A stretch of DNA of 8,346 bases, from positions 1 to 8,346 of the forward strand of contig JAJRSX010000136.1 in assembly GCA_024278555.1 (NCBI GenBank). The letters are read 5' to 3'. Below, in pieces: positions 217 through 8,346 of the stretch. The notes below the pieces were generated by a model. That model did not search any database, was not told where the DNA came from, and worked only from the letters and a program-made list of their open reading frames with translations. Made by a program: the position numbers and the translations under genes. The stretch's first letter is position 1. Each line of letters opens with the position of its first letter. The DNA comes from a bacterium. GTDB taxonomy: Bacteria; CG2-30-53-67; CG2-30-70-394.

Positions 217-396
217 CTACCCAAGCAGCTCCCCCCCCTTCGCCCAGTTCTCGCGCGGGACCTCCTCGATCACCACATAGGTCGCCTCGGGCGGCTTGCT
301 CGCCACCCGCTCCAAGGTAGCGGTGAACTCGCGAGCGATCTTCTCCTTCTGTTCGCGGGTGAGGGATCCGGCGACGCGCAGATGGCAGTACGGCAT
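217..396 (-). CDS. 4-oxalocrotonate tautomerase-like protein (59 aa)
   Basis: This is a small tautomerase-superfamily protein. These enzymes use an N-terminal proline, exposed when Met is removed, as a general base in keto-enol tautomerisation. The sequence begins MPYCHLRV, giving Pro1, and ends with the family pattern VPRENWAKGGELLG. Its length matches the usual 58-65 aa. Compared with classical 4-OT, numbering from Pro1, the two arginines that contact the dicarboxylate substrate (Arg11, Arg39) align with Leu11 and Tyr39, and Phe50 aligns with Trp50. It is therefore unlikely to be a 2-hydroxymuconate tautomerase proper, and the substrate is unknown. No aromatic meta-cleavage genes are nearby. 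The start is fixed by the Pro1 requirement and by an AAGGAG Shine-Dalgarno 5 nt upstream. Longer readings in this frame run antisense through ssrA and are rejected. It is divergent from ssrA. Confidence 0.9.
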   Translation of the reverse strand: MPYCHLRVAGSLTREQKEKIAREFTATLERVASKPPEATYVVIEEVPRENWAKGGELLG

Positions 397-401
397 GGTG
401 G

Positions 402-407
402 CTCCTT
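402..407 (-). promoter_or_regulatory. Ribosome binding site of the tautomerase gene
   Basis: CTCCTT on the plus strand is AAGGAG on the minus strand, with 5 nt to the ATG at 396. This perfect Shine-Dalgarno decides the start codon. It overlaps the candidate ssrA -35 box on the opposite strand. Confidence 0.85.
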
Positions 408-434
408 GTTTACGGGGAAGAGGATCACTAGATT
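406..434 (+). promoter_or_regulatory. Candidate sigma70 promoter of ssrA
   Basis: TTGTTT at 406-411 (4 of 6 matches to TTGACA) and TAGATT at 429-434 (4 of 6 to TATAAT) are separated by 17 nt. Transcription would begin near 440-443 and give a precursor with a leader of about 57-60 nt before the mature tmRNA end at 500. The leader is very GC-rich and holds the 12-nt palindrome GGGCGCGCGCCC at 451-462. No better promoter was found between the tautomerase start and ssrA. The predicted start coincides with the left edge of the 77-bp repeat. Confidence 0.45.
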
Positions 435-442
435 GGAGTTGT

Positions 443-519
443 ACCGTAGCGGGCGCGCGCCCCACCACCCTGTCCTGGGGCCGGCCGCCGAACCGACACG
501 GGGGTGAAATGGATTCGAC
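443..519 (+). repeat. 77-bp direct repeat, copy 1 (ssrA leader and 5' end)
   Basis: These 77 bp match 4181-4257 at 72 positions in the same orientation, 3738 bp apart and without gaps. Copy 1 covers about 57 nt of ssrA leader and the first 20 nt of mature tmRNA. It is the functional parent, because the intact ssrA continues from it. Similarity stops abruptly on both sides. Confidence 0.93.
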
Positions 520-846
520 GGGGATCAGAAGCCTGTGGTGCATGTCGAGGTCCGGCGGCCTCGTTAAACAGCCGGAAAACACAACAGCCGAGCCTGAGCT
601 CGCACTCGCGGCGTAGAACCCGCGACGTCCCCACCCGCTGGTACCTACGGCACGGGTGATGGATGTCAGAAACCGTAGGATGCAGTCCGCGGACGCCCCG
701 ACGCGGACCCAAGCCAAGGGGCTCCGGGCCACGCCATTGCCCCGTCTGTGGGACCGGCGCGGCCGACAACAAACGCAGACTACACATGTAGTGCCACAGT
801 AGCGGAAGGTTTCCGGACGCGGGTTCGAGTCCCGCCACCTCCACCA
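500..846 (+). ncRNA. ssrA: Transfer-messenger RNA (tmRNA, 10Sa RNA)
   Basis: tmRNA rescues ribosomes stalled on mRNAs without stop codons. It enters as an alanyl-tRNA mimic with SmpB, then serves as the template for a degradation tag. The 5' end has the conserved block GAAATGGATTCGACGGGGAT. The 3' end has GGACGCGGGTTCGAGTCCCG followed by CCACCTCCACCA. The acceptor stem pairs 500-506 (GGGGGTG) with 836-842 (CACCTCC, one G-U), followed by ACCA at 843-846 with CCA encoded. The T arm is GCGGG/CCCGC (819-823 with 831-835) around the loop TTCGAGT. The length of 347 nt is normal for a one-piece tmRNA. The tag-coding part lies at 587-616, between the GTGCATGTCGAGG region and the pseudoknot domain. 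smpB is not in this window. The ends are supported by base pairing, so confidence is very high. Confidence 0.98.
587..616 (+). other. tmRNA tag-peptide reading frame (AEPELALAA)
   Basis: Placing the resume codon by alignment with Escherichia coli ssrA (16 nt from the shared GCCG block to GCA) puts it at GCC, 587-589. The frame reads A-E-P-E-L-A-L-A-A and ends at TAG 614-616. With the alanine carried by tmRNA the full tag would be AAEPELALAA. The C-terminal ALAA is the ClpXP/ClpAP recognition end. The first half departs from the common ANDENY/ANDDNY pattern that SspB binds in E. coli. The frame is also open upstream (TT, ENTT), so the resume codon is an inference. Confidence 0.8.
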
Positions 847-868
847 TTTTTTTGCTGCGCAAAAAAAA
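847..868 (+). terminator. T7-GC-TGC-GC-A8 palindrome after ssrA
   Basis: Directly after the CCA end of tmRNA comes a run of seven T, then GCTGCGC, then eight A. The two halves are complementary around a TGC loop. In the plus direction the U-run immediately follows the GC-rich T arm and acceptor stem, so transcription may stop here. On the minus strand the A8 is the U-tract for the hairpin at 874-887. A bidirectional terminator between the convergent ssrA and ATPase genes is the simplest reading. Confidence 0.55.
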
Positions 869-887
869 TTGATCACCCTACCGGGTG
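861..887 (-). terminator. Rho-independent terminator of the ATPase gene
   Basis: On the minus strand CACCC-GGTA-GGGTG (887-874) forms a 5-bp stem with a 4-nt loop. After ATCAA it is followed by eight T (868-861). It lies about 40 nt past the stop codon of the ATPase gene. The stem is short, so strength is uncertain, but position and U-tract fit. Confidence 0.6.
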
Positions 888-925
888 CACCTCAACATCT
901 TCTTTGACACCGACCCAGCTCGTAA

Positions 926-2287
926 CTACCCCAGCAGCGCCAGCGCCACCGGCAACGGCAGGGTCTCGGTCCCTTGAAGCCTGCCGGGGTGCTTCGAGCA
1001 GTTGAAAATCCGGGCGTTGGGGTACTTGGCGATCTGCTTGAGCTCCTTGGGCCGGAGCTGCTCGGTCCACTTCACCTCCACCGGCCAGAAGCGGCCCTGG
1101 TCCACATAGGCCACGTCCACCTCGCCCTCCGCCTTGATGTAGTAGGTGGGGTAGAGGCGCCGGTAGTGGGTGGCCACACACGCCTCGGCCAGGTGGCCCG
1201 CGGTGGCGGGATCGGCGACGGCGGGGAGGATCTGGTCCTCGAACGGTCGGCCGGCGGGATGCAGCCAGGCGCGAACGGCGTGAAAGATGAAGGGGTCGGT
1301 AAAGACCAGCTTCCGTGCCTTCTTCGGGGCGGCGGTGAGCTTGTCTTCCAGGAGGGCGGACTGGATGAACAGGGCATCCATGGAGGCGAGGAGCGCGGCG
1401 TAGTCGGCGACGGTCTTGGGGTGGTCGATGGAGAGGTCCCGGGCGAGGGCATTCCAGGAGACCTGGCTGCCGAGGCGGCGGATGACCGCGGTCAGGACCT
1501 CCCGCAGGTAGTGCTCCTGCCGGCCCCGTTTGAGCACGTCGCCGCGGATCCAGTCGGAGTAGGTATGGAGGGTGGCCTCGGAGATGCGCCCGGTGGCGGC
1601 GAGGTCGTTGATGGCGGTGAGATAGCCACCGTGGGCGAGGTAGCGGTCGAACTCCTCGAACAGGACCTCCACCACGGCCGGGGCCACCTCGGCGGGCGGT
1701 GCAGCCAGGGCGGTCCCGATCTCGCCGCCGCGCTTCAGATCTACGGCCTCGCGAAAGGAGAGCGGGTAGAGATGGAAGTCCACCGCCGCCGCCGTGCCCC
1801 GGCGACCCGGCAACCGCATGCGGGCCTCCTGGATGAGCACCAGGTCGGAGCCGGTGAGCACCAGCACGCACTGCTCCAAAAAGCCCGCGTCGGCGGCGTA
1901 CTTCACCGCCTTGTCCCAGTCGCGGATGTAGCTCACCTCGTCGACCAGCAAGTAGGTCCGCCCGCGCGGCATCTCCTCGATCTGGCTCTGTAATAGGTAG
2001 AGGAGGGCGTGATGGTCGTCGATCAGCTCGCCTGAAAAAAAGCCGATGGCCGCGGGCGCCACGCCACGGTCCAGCAGCTCGCCCATCCACTGCTTGAGCA
2101 GGGTGGTCTTGCCCACCTGGCGCCCTCCCCCCACGGTGTAGATGCCCGGCAGGTCGGGAAGCCGGTCGAGGAGGGACGGACGATGGATGTAGGTCTGCCG
2201 GGCCAACAGACGGAGCTGCGGATCCCGCTCCGCGAAGCGTTGGGGCTCTTCGAGGTGGGCGTTGTGCGGCAGGAATCGGGGGTCCAT
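926..2287 (-). CDS. AAA_14/DUF4143-type stand-alone ATPase (453 aa)
   Basis: This is a cytoplasmic P-loop ATPase of the AAA_14 plus DUF4143 type. The family is widespread in bacteria and archaea, often scattered singly, and its cellular role is not established. Walker A is GGGRQVGKTT (residues 53-62, Lys60). Walker B is TYLLVDEV (111-118, Asp116, Glu117). LTGSD at 144-148 is a sensor-1-like strand. The middle (about 250-340) is helical and winged-helix-like, as in DUF4143. The C-terminus has EVDVAYVDQGRFWPVEVKW (389-407), resembling the core of a restriction-endonuclease-like fold with Asp391, Glu404 and Lys406. Length is typical for the family (about 400-480 aa). The ATG has AAAGG about 8 nt upstream. 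No partner gene is adjacent: ssrA converges on it, and a gene-poor region and a pseudogene lie upstream. It appears intact, and a laterally acquired single gene is a reasonable inference. Confidence 0.9.
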   Translation of the reverse strand: MDPRFLPHNAHLEEPQRFAERDPQLRLLARQTYIHRPSLLDRLPDLPGIYTVGGGRQVGKTTLLKQWMGELLDRGVAPAAIGFFSGELIDDHHALLYLLQSQIEEMPRGRTYLLVDEVSYIRDWDKAVKYAADAGFLEQCVLVLTGSDLVLIQEARMRLPGRRGTAAAVDFHLYPLSFREAVDLKRGGEIGTALAAPPAEVAPAVVEVLFEEFDRYLAHGGYLTAINDLAATGRISEATLHTYSDWIRGDVLKRGRQEHYLREVLTAVIRRLGSQVSWNALARDLSIDHPKTVADYAALLASMDALFIQSALLEDKLTAAPKKARKLVFTDPFIFHAVRAWLHPAGRPFEDQILPAVADPATAGHLAEACVATHYRRLYPTYYIKAEGEVDVAYVDQGRFWPVEVKWTEQLRPKELKQIAKYPNARIFNCSKHPGRLQGTETLPLPVALALLG

Positions 2288-2608
2288 GGGCCGCCTTTAT
2301 ATTTGGATACTGGTTACTGACTAAATTTGAGCACTCACCGTTGTCAATTCATCGACAATGGAGCCTCGGTTCACTACGGCCCCCAGGCCACCCCCTTCGT
2401 GCCGGCGCCCAGCGCCCTTCGGGGGACTTCGTGGATCAATCCGCAACCGTAGCCACCTGTCCCACTGATCGGCCCAGCCCTTACGAGCCTCGTCGCGCCA
2501 CGCCTGGGATCTCTCGCGCGTCCGGATCCCGCACCGATTGGCAGACCTGAGATGGTGTGGGGCGCCTGTCGAACTGTGCATGACCGCGCTCTCGATCCCC
2601 GGGCGGGC
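2288..2608. other. Gene-free stretch upstream of the ATPase gene
   Basis: There is no convincing coding region in these 321 nt. Positions 2288-2360 hold the AT-rich promoter patch. The rest (2360-2608) is GC-rich, and its small open frames (69-90 codons) have low-complexity, Arg/Pro-rich translations resembling nothing I know. It separates the 3' end of the pseudogene from the ATPase promoter. It could be remnant coding sequence too eroded to recognise. Confidence 0.5.
2320..2347 (-). promoter_or_regulatory. Candidate promoter of the ATPase gene with overlapping inverted repeat
   Basis: On the minus strand TTGACA (2347-2342, perfect -35) is followed after 16 nt by TTTAGT (2325-2320, 4 of 6 to TATAAT). 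This would give a leader of about 25-30 nt before the ATG at 2287. The -35 box overlaps the inverted repeat TTGTC-8 nt-GACAA at 2341-2358, a possible operator. The area is the most AT-rich patch in the left half of the window. Confidence 0.5.
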
Positions 2609-3832
2609 TCACTCCGACCCCAGCTCCCTTCCGAGGACCCGGCTGACGAAGTGGTCGCCGCCGGGGGGCTCGTGGGCGACGAGGGTGCGGATGCGCGCCT
2701 TCGTCGCCGCCACACAGCCGGCGTTGGTGGCGGCCTGCAGGGTGTATGTAGGCGTCGTGCACGTCGCTGCTGGTGATGTCGTAGCCGTACCCCTCGACGA
2801 GCCAGCGTAGGGCGGTGATGCCGGCATCGAGGGCGAAGGCGGGATTGCTCTCGGCGAAGTCGCGCGCCGCCCGGGTGAGGGTCTGGGGGCTGCCGGGGGT
2901 GTGGTTGGCGAGGGCGATCGCCGCATCGAAGAGCTTCGCCGCCGAGGCGGCGGCGAACCAATTGCCCTCCTCCCCCGGGGTCTGGGCGACGAGGTCGGTG
3001 AGGATCTCGGTGCCCTCCTTGTCCGGCTACTTGCGCGCCACGGCGCGGAACCAGGCGAGATAGGTGTTCGCTTGGTTGGCGCGCAGGCCGTAGCGGCGGT
3101 ACGCCTCGTCGGTGCGGCCGTCGGCAAGGAGGACCTCCTCGCACACCCGGGCGACGGCGTTGCTCCCCAGGTAGGGCTCCTCGCCCTCCTCGGCGTAGCG
3201 GATCGCCGCGTCGACCTCACCCATGGCCGCGAGGGCCTTCACCCCGTACCGGCGGTAGCTCCAGAAGGGACGCCGTTCCCTGGCGAGGAGGTCGAGGATC
3301 TCCTGCTCGCGGCCGGCCGCGAGCAGGGCGCTCAGGCAGTTGGGCGCACCGTGGAAGAAGGCGCCGGGAGGCGCCTCCGCCTGCCACACCTGCCGGCAAC
3401 CAGGCAGGAGCCGGTCGGCCCACTGGGAGGCGACCTCCGGCGACGCGCACAGCTCCCCCAGCGGTCGCCGAGGGCCTCGATGTAGGGGATCTCGTCCTCC
3501 TCATACGCCTGCCAGAGCCGCTCGAGCCAGGCGTCACGCTGCTCGCGCGTTGCCGGCGCCGCGGCGATGATGGGCACCAGCGCCGCGATGGCCCGGTTGA
3601 CCGCGGTGCCGATCGCCCCCGAGGAGCTGTCGACCAGCTCCAGCGCCGTTGAGAGCCGCTCGAGCAGGAGGACCGCCCCCTCGGCGGCGACCTCGGGCTC
3701 CTTGCGCGCCACCCGCTTGATCTCCGAGACCGCCTCGCGGATCCGGGTGATCGCCGGCTTCGAGCGCCAGCCGAAGGCACGGGCACGGAAGCGCCGCCGG
3801 AACTCCCACTGGTGGCTCCTGAGTTGCGTCAT
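2609..3832 (-). pseudogene. Broken gene for a helical-repeat-like protein (about 408 codons)
   Basis: One protein can be followed across two reading frames and an amber codon. Segment A runs from the ATG at 3832 (MTQLRSHQWEFRRR) to EALGDRWG near 3460. A one-base loss in the C-run at 3455-3459 moves reading to segment B (ELCASPEVASQWADRLLPG... to FRAVARK). B ends at TAG 3027-3029, where the flanking frame suggests an original Tyr codon (K-stop-PDKEG). Segment C continues in the same frame (TEILTDLVAQTPGEEGNWFA ... YGYDITSSDVHDAY). Near 2745 an extra base restores the first frame, giving segment D (TLQAATNAGCVAATKARIRT ... LGRELGSE) and TGA at 2609. The translation is rich in paired helices (VKALAAMGEVDAAIRYAEEG, VDEAYRRYGLRAN), as in TPR/HEAT-like proteins. 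I recall similar unnamed proteobacterial proteins but cannot name a function. An AAGGAG at 3841-3846 sits 8 nt before the ATG. Sequencing error could explain the two indels but less easily the amber codon. Confidence 0.82.
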
Positions 3833-4180
3833 CGCCAGCGCTCCTTCGGGGGCAGATCGAGAAGGGGAATGGGCGGCGTCGACCCTACCTGGACCACCCG
3901 GCCGGGGAAAGGTACGGCTCCCGCGTGCGCGGCGACCCGTGGACAGGGGAGGACGAAGAGCGGGTGATGCCCTCTCCTCGCGCGGCGGCGCCGAGACGCG
4001 GAGGGGGAGATCGGCGATGCGCCGCCGGACCAGCGGCATGGAGGTAGGAGCGGGCTCCTGCCCGCGATACCGTCGGCCCCATGGCACGGCGACGCAGCCC
4101 GGGGAGGCAGATTGCGGCACGGGTGGTCCACGAGGCCCTGGCCCAGCGCGGAGTGAGGCAACCGTAGCCTCGGGGTCAGA
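3833..4180. other. Gene-free stretch between the pseudogene and repeat copy 2
   Basis: I see no gene in these 348 nt. They hold the AAGGAG ribosome binding site of the pseudogene (minus strand, 3841-3846) and a REP-like hairpin at 4044-4069. The remaining GC-rich sequence has open frames on both strands only because stops are rare. No clear promoter for the pseudogene was seen. Confidence 0.5.
4044..4069. repeat. REP-like palindromic element
   Basis: The sequence GTAGGAGCGGGC at 4044-4055 is followed by TCCT and GCCCGCGATA. GCGGGC (4050-4055) and GCCCGC (4060-4065) form a 6-bp stem with a 4-nt loop, preceded by the GTAGGA head. This matches the layout of Pseudomonas-type REP elements, which are mobilised in trans by RAYT (TnpA_REP) transposases. 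Only one unit is present, with no inverted partner, and no RAYT gene is in the window. Confidence 0.7.
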
Positions 4181-4257
4181 ACCGCAGCGGCCGCGCGCCC
4201 CACCACCCTGTCCCGGGGCCGACCGCCGAACCGACACGGGGGTGAAATGGAATCGAC
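4181..4257 (+). repeat. 77-bp direct repeat, copy 2 (ssrA 5' fragment)
   Basis: This copy repeats 443-519 with five substitutions and no gaps. It contains the equivalent of the tmRNA start (GGGGGTGAAATGGAATCGAC), in which the near-invariant GGATTCGAC has become GGAATCGAC. Beyond 4257 nothing resembles tmRNA: there is no tag frame, pseudoknots or 3' tRNA half. It is therefore a partial, non-functional ssrA duplicate. The segment upstream of 4181 does not match the ssrA promoter. The end can form a weak hairpin (GTGAA 4242-4246 with TTCAC 4258-4262). It lies 53 nt past the stop of the TPR lipoprotein gene and would be transcribed antisense by read-through from it. Confidence 0.92.
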
Positions 4258-4310
4258 TTCACTGAAACTCTTCGTTGTCTTGTGCCTCTCGCGGTTTATC
4301 ACGATCGACA

Positions 4311-5651
4311 TTATTCGACGGGCTTGGCGATGCGCGCCAGGATGCGTTCCACGTAGGGGCGCTCCACCGCGTCGGGGGCCATCTTGAGGTAGGCGTGGAA
4401 GGCGTCGAGGGCGTGGGGGTAGTCGCCCTTGAGGGTGTAGCTGAGGCCGAGGTTGTAGTACGCCTTGGCGGTCTCCGGGTGGTCCTCCAGGAGCCGCTGG
4501 AGCTCACGGATGGCGGCGTCGTAGGCACCCATGTCGTGGTAGGTGACCGCCAGGTTCATGCGCGCAAAGAGGTGGTCGGGCTCGCGGGTCAGGGCCCGCT
4601 GGAACCACTGGACCGCGGTCTCGTACTCCTTGGCGGCAAAGTAGGTGTAGCCGAGGTTGTTCATCGCCCAGGCGTGGTCCGGGGCGAGTTCCAGGGTCTT
4701 GCGGTAGAGGGCGCGCGCCCGGTCGAGCTGCATGGTGGCGAAGTAGGCGTTGCCAAGGTCGTTGTAGACCTCCGGGTCGGTGGGATCGAGCTGCGCCGCC
4801 CGCTGATAGGCGTCGATCGCCTCTTCGTAGTGGCCGGCGCGGGCGAGGGCGGTGCCGCGCGCCATCCAGGTGGGCGCCCCGTCCGCCGGCGACACCACCG
4901 AGGGGGGCACCGCCGGCGGTCGCGCCGCCTCCTCTGGCGGGGGCGTGCGCCTAGGCGGATCGACCGCCCCGTCGCCGTAGCTGGAGGCGATCAGCGACCG
5001 GCGTGCGGCCGACACCGGGCGGTCGGCCGCCGGGTCCGGGCGGCCGTGGGCGGGCGGCAAATCGACCCGGGTGCGCGGCGGCTCGGAGGCCGGGTGGAGG
5101 TGGGCGAGGAGGTCGTGGTCGCCCTCCTCGGGGAAGACGATCTCGTGGGTCGGCGGCCCCAGCGCCGCCACTACCCGCTCTTTACGCGCCACCGCCGCGG
5201 TCTGCGGTCGCAACCGAGCGAGCTGCACCGGGTCGAGCTTCACCACCCGGCGGAAGGCGGCGAGGGCCTTTTCCCCTTCCCCGGCGCCGCGATACGCCTG
5301 CCAGAGGCCGTTTTCGGTGGCCGCGTCGTCGGGGCGCAGGCGTGCGGCGACCTCCAGCTCGCGGATCGCCTCGCGGTAGTGGCCGAGGCGCAGGGCCGCC
5401 TGGCCGGCGTAGTGGTGCAGGGCGAAGGAGTCACCGCCCGCGGCGAGCGCCGCGTGGAAGGCCTCGGCCGCCTCCCGCCAGCGCGCCTCGCGGAAGGCGG
5501 TGAGGCCGCGGTCGAAATGGCTCTCCCACGCCGGTTGGCGGTGGGGCAACAGGCCGTCGAGCCGCGGCAGCGCGACGCCCGCGCCGTGGGTCGGGGCGCA
5601 CGCCGGTAGCACGAGCACACAGATCAGCAAAAAGAAGGGGATACGGGTCAT
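4311..5651 (-). CDS. TPR-repeat lipoprotein (446 aa)
   Basis: This is probably an envelope lipoprotein built from tetratricopeptide repeats, which act as protein-docking scaffolds. The N-terminus MTRIPFFLLICVLVLPAC is a lipoprotein signal peptide with lipobox LPAC, so Cys18 would be lipidated. About three TPR-like helix pairs occupy residues 41-142 (for example HYREAIRELEVAARLRPDD). A Pro/Arg/Ala-rich, probably disordered linker spans about 143-258. Five regular TPRs cover 260-428 (for example YNDLGNAYFATMQLDRARAL, YYNLGLSYTLKGDYPHALDA). The linker splits the protein into two TPR domains. The ATG is chosen because the signal peptide starts there; no good Shine-Dalgarno is visible. It is divergent from the thioredoxin-like gene with only 64 nt between starts. 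No particular complex (pilus, secretion, outer-membrane assembly) is indicated by the neighbours. Confidence 0.88.
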   Translation of the reverse strand: MTRIPFFLLICVLVLPACAPTHGAGVALPRLDGLLPHRQPAWESHFDRGLTAFREARWREAAEAFHAALAAGGDSFALHHYAGQAALRLGHYREAIRELEVAARLRPDDAATENGLWQAYRGAGEGEKALAAFRRVVKLDPVQLARLRPQTAAVARKERVVAALGPPTHEIVFPEEGDHDLLAHLHPASEPPRTRVDLPPAHGRPDPAADRPVSAARRSLIASSYGDGAVDPPRRTPPPEEAARPPAVPPSVVSPADGAPTWMARGTALARAGHYEEAIDAYQRAAQLDPTDPEVYNDLGNAYFATMQLDRARALYRKTLELAPDHAWAMNNLGYTYFAAKEYETAVQWFQRALTREPDHLFARMNLAVTYHDMGAYDAAIRELQRLLEDHPETAKAYYNLGLSYTLKGDYPHALDAFHAYLKMAPDAVERPYVERILARIAKPVE

Positions 5652-5715: not shown

Positions 5716-6051
5716 ATGAAGATTGAGGCCACCCTCCACGATGACAACTTCCACGACGCGGTCCTCGAGGCCGCGGGACCGGTGGTGGTGGAGTTCACCG
5801 CCACCTGGTGCTGGCCGTGCCTCCGGTACGAGCCGGTCCTCGCCGCCGCGCACGCCGCCTTCGGCCACGGCATCCGACTGATGCGTATGGACATCGACAA
5901 GAACCGCGTCATCCCGACGCGATACGGGGTGGTCAATGTTCCCACCCTCCTGGTCTTCCACCGCGGCAAGCTGCTCAAGGCGATCGAGGGGATTCGTGAC
6001 CAGGGGTCCCTGGTGGAGACCTTCCGCTCCCTGACGGCGCAGACGGTATAG
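5716..6051 (+). CDS. Thioredoxin-like protein with CWPC active site (111 aa)
   Basis: This is a single-domain thioredoxin-fold protein of standard length (about 105-112 aa), probably a cytoplasmic dithiol-disulfide oxidoreductase. The core reads VVVEFTATWCWPCLRYEPVL, with catalytic cysteines Cys32 and Cys35 in W31-C-W-P-C35. Classical thioredoxin has WCGPC, so the Gly between Cys and Pro is replaced by Trp. The conserved MDIDKN strand (58-63), the cis-proline loop NVPTLLVF (74-81, Pro76) and the FHRGK turn are present. The ends fit a complete domain with no signal peptide or membrane segment. The ATG at 5716 has a weak TAGG-type ribosome site about 6 nt upstream; an upstream in-frame ATG adds non-homologous sequence. 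The residue between the cysteines affects redox potential in this family, so the specificity may be altered. It is followed after 74 nt by ribF. Confidence 0.9.
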   Translation: MKIEATLHDDNFHDAVLEAAGPVVVEFTATWCWPCLRYEPVLAAAHAAFGHGIRLMRMDIDKNRVIPTRYGVVNVPTLLVFHRGKLLKAIEGIRDQGSLVETFRSLTAQTV

Positions 6052-8159: not shown

Positions 8160-8346
8160 TCGGACGGCGATCGCAGGCTCTCGGAGACCGTGCCGCCCGG
8201 CAGGGAAACAGCCACGGAATCCACGGAAGCACACGGAAGCAGGGATCTCCCGTTGGGTTGAGCGAGCGCCCCGGACCCCACTATTGCTCGAAGCAGGACC
8301 GGCGCCACCCCGTTCCCTTCCCTCCACTACGCTTCTCGCCCCTTCC
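8160..8346. other. Gene-free right end
   Basis: No gene is recognised after the small membrane protein. A hairpin TGCC-GCCC-GGCA at 8191-8202 lies 31 nt past the stop but has no T-run, so it is at best a weak or Rho-assisted end. The CACGGAA repeat follows at 8213-8238. The rest to the edge is pyrimidine-rich with no clear motif. Confidence 0.5.
8212..8239. repeat. CACGGAA short tandem repeat x3
   Basis: CACGGAA occurs at 8213-8219, 8222-8228 and 8232-8238, with spacing of 9 and 10 nt. It resembles the CCACGAAG-AACACGAAG-type intergenic arrays common in some purple sulfur and related gammaproteobacteria (recollection, not checked). No function is assigned. Confidence 0.7.

Follow-up and report, generated by a model that had tools for sequence, protein, structure and literature searches.

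Why does a short piece from the 5' side of the tmRNA gene (ssrA) recur 3.7 kb downstream of that gene, in the same orientation? The window studied here, that is, the whole stretch of DNA analysed, is one complete contig of 8346 bp from a 3.06-Mb genome that is available as a draft assembly of 211 contigs. We compared the locus with one congeneric genome, G001, and weighed the ways in which the second copy could have arisen.

The repeat pair and the native ssrA locus

Positions 443–519 (copy 1) and 4181–4257 (copy 2) share 72 of 77 bases in an ungapped alignment and stand in direct orientation; coordinates, orientation and identity were all exact in the original prediction that called attention to the repeat. 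Self-comparison of the window (+1/−2) gave the pair a score of 62, against a maximum of 17 in 20 first-order Markov sequences derived from the window; the duplication is real and far beyond chance. ARAGORN and Rfam placed the tmRNA at 500–846, which confirmed that the duplicated piece consists of a 57-nt leader (443–499) and the first 20 nt of tmRNA (500–519). A search with the 77-mer returned exactly two copies from the source genome, the remaining matches being at chance level, and the many unrelated copies that were to speak against the prediction did not appear. The features of the locus are as follows.

217–396, minus strand: 4-oxalocrotonate tautomerase-like gene (Pfam PF01361), the divergent neighbour of ssrA and a conserved upstream anchor
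406–434, plus strand: predicted ssrA promoter, TTGTTT-17-TAGATT, the top-scoring sigma-70-like site on the plus strand of the window
443–519, plus strand: copy 1, native, leader (443–499) and tmRNA nt 1–20 (500–519)
500–846, plus strand: ssrA (tmRNA), intact, with tag AEPELALAA (ARAGORN; Rfam RF00023, 164.5 bits)
847–4180, no strand: lineage-specific segment from the ssrA 3' end to copy 2, counterpart not found in G001
926–2287, minus strand: intact ATPase gene with AAA_14 and DUF4143, not found in G001
2640–3832 (left limit approximate), minus strand: pseudogene of an uncharacterised protein, carrying one in-frame stop codon and, apparently, two changes of frame
4181–4257, plus strand: copy 2, a promoterless, decaying leader with tmRNA nt 1–20; no Rfam match at 4000–4700
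4258–4310, no strand: unique sequence that separates copy 2 from the renewed homology to G001
4311–5651, minus strand: gene for a TPR-repeat protein; orthology to G001 extends as far as the stop codon

The region from the tautomerase gene through the promoter and leader to the end of ssrA (217–846) is 88% identical to G001, and the block of flagellar genes, HDOD gene, tautomerase and ssrA is syntenic between the two genomes (apart from the tautomerase, gene names in the synteny comparison come from reading translations by eye). In the source genome, the flagellar/HDOD genes found upstream of the tautomerase in G001 lie on contig C130, and the bases that open the window, with the GCGGACA array among them, recur at the end of this contig. 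The conserved synteny and the matching contig end indicate that copy 1 belongs to ssrA at its ancestral place, and this ssrA is the only working tmRNA gene of the genome. Judged from the shared end sequence, C130 and C112 are probably neighbouring contigs in the genome. The GCGGACA array is a 7-bp tandem array of 14.7 copies that opens the contig (1–103), and a shorter version with the same flank occurs at the C130 end (L084). G001 itself is probably the MAG Nitrospirae bacterium CG2_30_70_394, a contig of which gave the same window matches as the G001 TPR locus.

The promoter is a prediction, and a strict consensus scan did not report the site at 406–434; its equivalent in G001, TTGTTT-17-TACATT, is the best of its region. 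From this predicted promoter, transcription of ssrA would start at about 441–443, and the repeat begins at 443. This agreement was noticed post hoc, and by our estimate an edge within one base of the start would be met by chance about 1 time in 20, given the 57-nt leader.

The downstream segment and the synteny breakpoint

Homology to G001 is lost at 846, where ssrA ends, and picks up again 54 bp past copy 2, with the stop codon of the TPR gene (4311). In G001, ssrA without the segment is followed by different genes and then by a stretch identified as pdxA by reading of its translation; in the source genome this pdxA-like stretch lies on another contig, beside other neighbours. The loss of homology at 846, its return at 4311 and the differing downstream neighbours place copy 2 at or near a rearrangement breakpoint. 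The 3.7 kb between the copies had been described as accessory; this holds for the lineage-specific part (847–4180), while 520–846 is native ssrA body. As predicted, the interval carries ssrA, an ATPase gene and a decayed gene, found here as an intact ssrA, the AAA_14/DUF4143 gene and the pseudogene.

The ATPase matches models of the PADLOC candidate PDC-S01 (best E 1.4e-29), a match that is uninformative on the repeat. Relatives of the pseudogene product are annotated as hypothetical and occur on plasmids, and a family search with it gave no significant match. The lineage-specific segment also contains short dispersed repeats, and there are further repeats elsewhere in the window. A stretch of about 60 bp at 2375–2436 has matches of about 84% identity on contigs C8, C148 and C77 and represents a dispersed repeat; a REP-like palindromic stretch, TAGGAGCGGGCTCCTGCCCGCGA, at 4043–4068 has several near-identical copies in the source genome; and a short imperfect repeat, ccacggaatccacggaagcacacggaagc, at 8209–8245 is apparently of the same style as the other intergenic repeats of this genome. 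The G001 contig carrying the TPR locus ends (L035, 1–110) in a different tandem array, of 6.5 copies of a 17-bp unit, about 200 bp beyond the end of the TPR gene at its stop codon.

Age and origin of copy 2

Copy 2 lies 3.7 kb downstream of ssrA in direct orientation, its left edge corresponding to the predicted ssrA transcription start and its right edge to tmRNA nt 20. With G001 as outgroup, the five differing positions could be polarised. G001 agrees with copy 1 at 447, 476, 484 and 513 (window numbering), making four changes derived in copy 2, and with copy 2 at 453, making one change derived in copy 1; one copy 2 substitution falls in the GGATTCGAC motif. In the leader, the two copies have bases in common where G001 has others, and the simplest reading is that the duplication took place after the split from G001. 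On these base comparisons, the pair most simply represents an aged duplication, made after divergence from the G001 lineage, and not an assembly echo, from which identical copies would be expected.

The original prediction regarded duplication of the 5' end of ssrA, rather than the 3' end, as unusual, and the available counts agree. We searched complete E. coli genomes with the 77-mer made of 57 nt upstream plus the first 20 nt of ssrA and with the last 77 nt of the gene, at what we took to be the ssrA position, which the annotation under the matches confirmed. The 5' 77-mer was found at 5379 places in 5375 genomes, hence at most 4 extra copies, whereas the 3' 77-mer was found at 5969 places in 5375 genomes, giving 594 extra copies. 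A pattern for orphan tmRNA 5' ends matched 19 of 386 genomes, none of them twice, but was too strict to be informative; no 5' tmRNA duplication was found among the papers listed in a literature search. Among the islands in Islander, 159 of 3919 have a 5' tDNA fragment (PMC4383910), and integration of the Dehalococcoides ssrA islands takes place at the 3' end (PMC3146451).

These figures bear on the reading of the two copies as attL and attR of an island integrated at the ssrA 5' end. An intact tmRNA gene and its cognate fragment in direct orientation around lineage-specific DNA are what such a site would leave, and the Islander cases include 5' fragments. However, an island integrated at the 5' end would have its fragment on the upstream side of the intact gene. 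The 5' fragment here lies downstream, where a 3' fragment would match that side of an island; the Dehalococcoides islands also use the 3' end. The segment proteins examined, from ORFs picked by eye, include no integrase and consist of the AAA_14/DUF4143 ATPase and the pseudogene. Of all the readings, we give this one the least credence. A candidate empty site in G001, an ssrA without the segment, has different downstream neighbours. Recombination at the repeat, an origin proposed earlier, does not fit the layout, as site-specific insertion there would result in an ssrA body lying beyond the right-hand copy, on its right. An assembly or binning artefact is also quite improbable, even in a draft of this many contigs with the window spanning one whole contig. 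Copy 2 retains one ancestral base lost from copy 1, a chimera would need a source with the GGAATCGAC variant, i.e., a damaged tmRNA, and the contig's left end is in agreement with the end of C130. The idea that 77 is the length of an assembler k-mer overlap was rejected, since the copies differ at five sites and copy 2 is thus not an exact overlap. It is very improbable, too, that copy 2 is functional, for instance by being transcribed, by acting as terminator for the TPR gene or by serving as a decoy. Its place just beyond the TPR stop codon, on the opposite strand, would suit such a role, but sigma-70-like scoring found no promoter-like site upstream of it, RNA from either strand of the repeat folded no better than shuffles, the sequence is decaying and has no Rfam match, and copy 2 is absent beside the TPR gene of G001 as far as that contig extends. 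We infer that copy 2 is functionless.

Two further origins had been suggested. Tandem (segmental) duplication of ssrA and downstream DNA, followed by deletion from tmRNA base 21 onwards and joining of the stump to the TPR locus, is possible and would explain the direct orientation; tandem duplications are ordinary events in bacteria, and the breakpoint beside copy 2 could be the deletion end. We nevertheless consider it unlikely. Two events are required, with independent breakpoints at the transcription start and 20 nt into the tmRNA; ARAGORN and Rfam (the latter at 4000–4700, with a relaxed E-value) found no remnant of a tmRNA body after 4257; and the window holds no second copy of other parts of 443–4180. 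In an RNA-derived origin, the 5' end of unprocessed pre-tmRNA would have been reverse transcribed to its 5' end and inserted. The left edge fits the predicted transcription start, and the copy includes the leader, which RNase P would remove, and excludes the promoter. On the other side, the start is itself a prediction, no priming site is obvious at the right edge, and a search for RVT_1 (PF00078) gave no match in the source genome or G001, although the same search found matches in control genomes; a transient source of reverse transcriptase is conceivable. This origin is highly unlikely, and its specific form, a run-off reverse transcript of the pre-tmRNA 5' end in a genome where RVT_1 was not detected, is more doubtful still. 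Ku was likewise not found, and the absence of Ku and RVT_1 disfavours both Ku-dependent end joining and reverse transcription.

Our preferred reading, held with modest confidence, is that copy 2 is a scar with no function, left at the rearrangement breakpoint by a non-homologous, templated duplication that happened once. The rearrangement would have brought new DNA (the ATPase gene and the pseudogene) to the downstream side of ssrA, together with the TPR-trx-ribF block. In its course, a polymerase or repair intermediate may have copied 77 bp of ssrA-locus DNA, beginning in the region of the transcription start and reaching about +77, and this copy would have gone into the breakpoint a few kb off and then been joined to unrelated sequence. 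With neither promoter nor tmRNA body, it would have been decaying ever since. A single templated step would explain why the copy is short and directly oriented, why an intact donor lies nearby and why machinery is lacking. As in known templated insertions, a short segment has been copied from nearby and its donor is intact. Microhomology at the junction is less clear: the 8-mer ACCGTAGC at the start of copy 1 (443–450) recurs on the plus strand at 4161–4168, 20 bp before copy 2 and hence off the junction. It could be a trace of microhomology, and we leave it unexplained. A search for a target-site duplication around copy 2 gave only 5-bp chance matches. A 12-mer, GCAACCGTAGCC, with ACCGTAGC as its core, is present at 2443–2454 and 4158–4169 and may be due to chance. 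Three points weigh against the templated scar: the 8-bp microhomology is 20 bp off the junction, one step cannot be told from two without the ancestral uninserted sequence, and the model does not call for a left edge that coincides with the predicted transcription start.

Comparison with known systems and consequences for ssrA

The locus resembles the tDNA/tmRNA islands of Islander and Dehalococcoides (PMC4383910, PMC3146451) in having an intact gene and a direct fragment flanking lineage-specific DNA. It differs from them in that copy 2 is a 5' fragment on the wrong side for 5' integration, includes the leader and is accompanied by no integrase among the proteins examined. Templated insertions and short-range template-switch duplications, described for eukaryotes (for example PMC7954356, PMC5120786), similarly copy a short nearby segment into a breakpoint with no mobile-element machinery; the mechanism here is deduced, with neither an ancestral sequence nor precise junction microhomology. 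Partial tRNA genes (PMC9897764) are likewise non-functional fragments of a stable-RNA gene beside an intact one. Those fragments were explained by element integration or CRISPR activity (PMC9897764), neither of which is supported for copy 2.

In principle the repeat exposes the tmRNA gene to deletion: recombination of copy 1 with copy 2 would take out ssrA, as noted in the original prediction. The longest identical run between the copies is only 28 bp, so such recombination should be rare. Beyond what had been predicted, copy 2 proved to start at the position of the predicted transcription start and to lie at a synteny breakpoint, and its substitutions could be polarised with a congener. Taken together, copy 2 is most likely a scar of DNA rearrangement, rather than a functional element or the junction of a mobile element; it is best read as an uncommon but ordinary scar, unusual in its position and not a new kind of system. 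Fragments of tmRNA are used to find genomic islands; as the present locus shows, such a fragment can lie in direct orientation without being a sign of integration. The downstream flank of ssrA is a breakpoint region in this little-sampled lineage.
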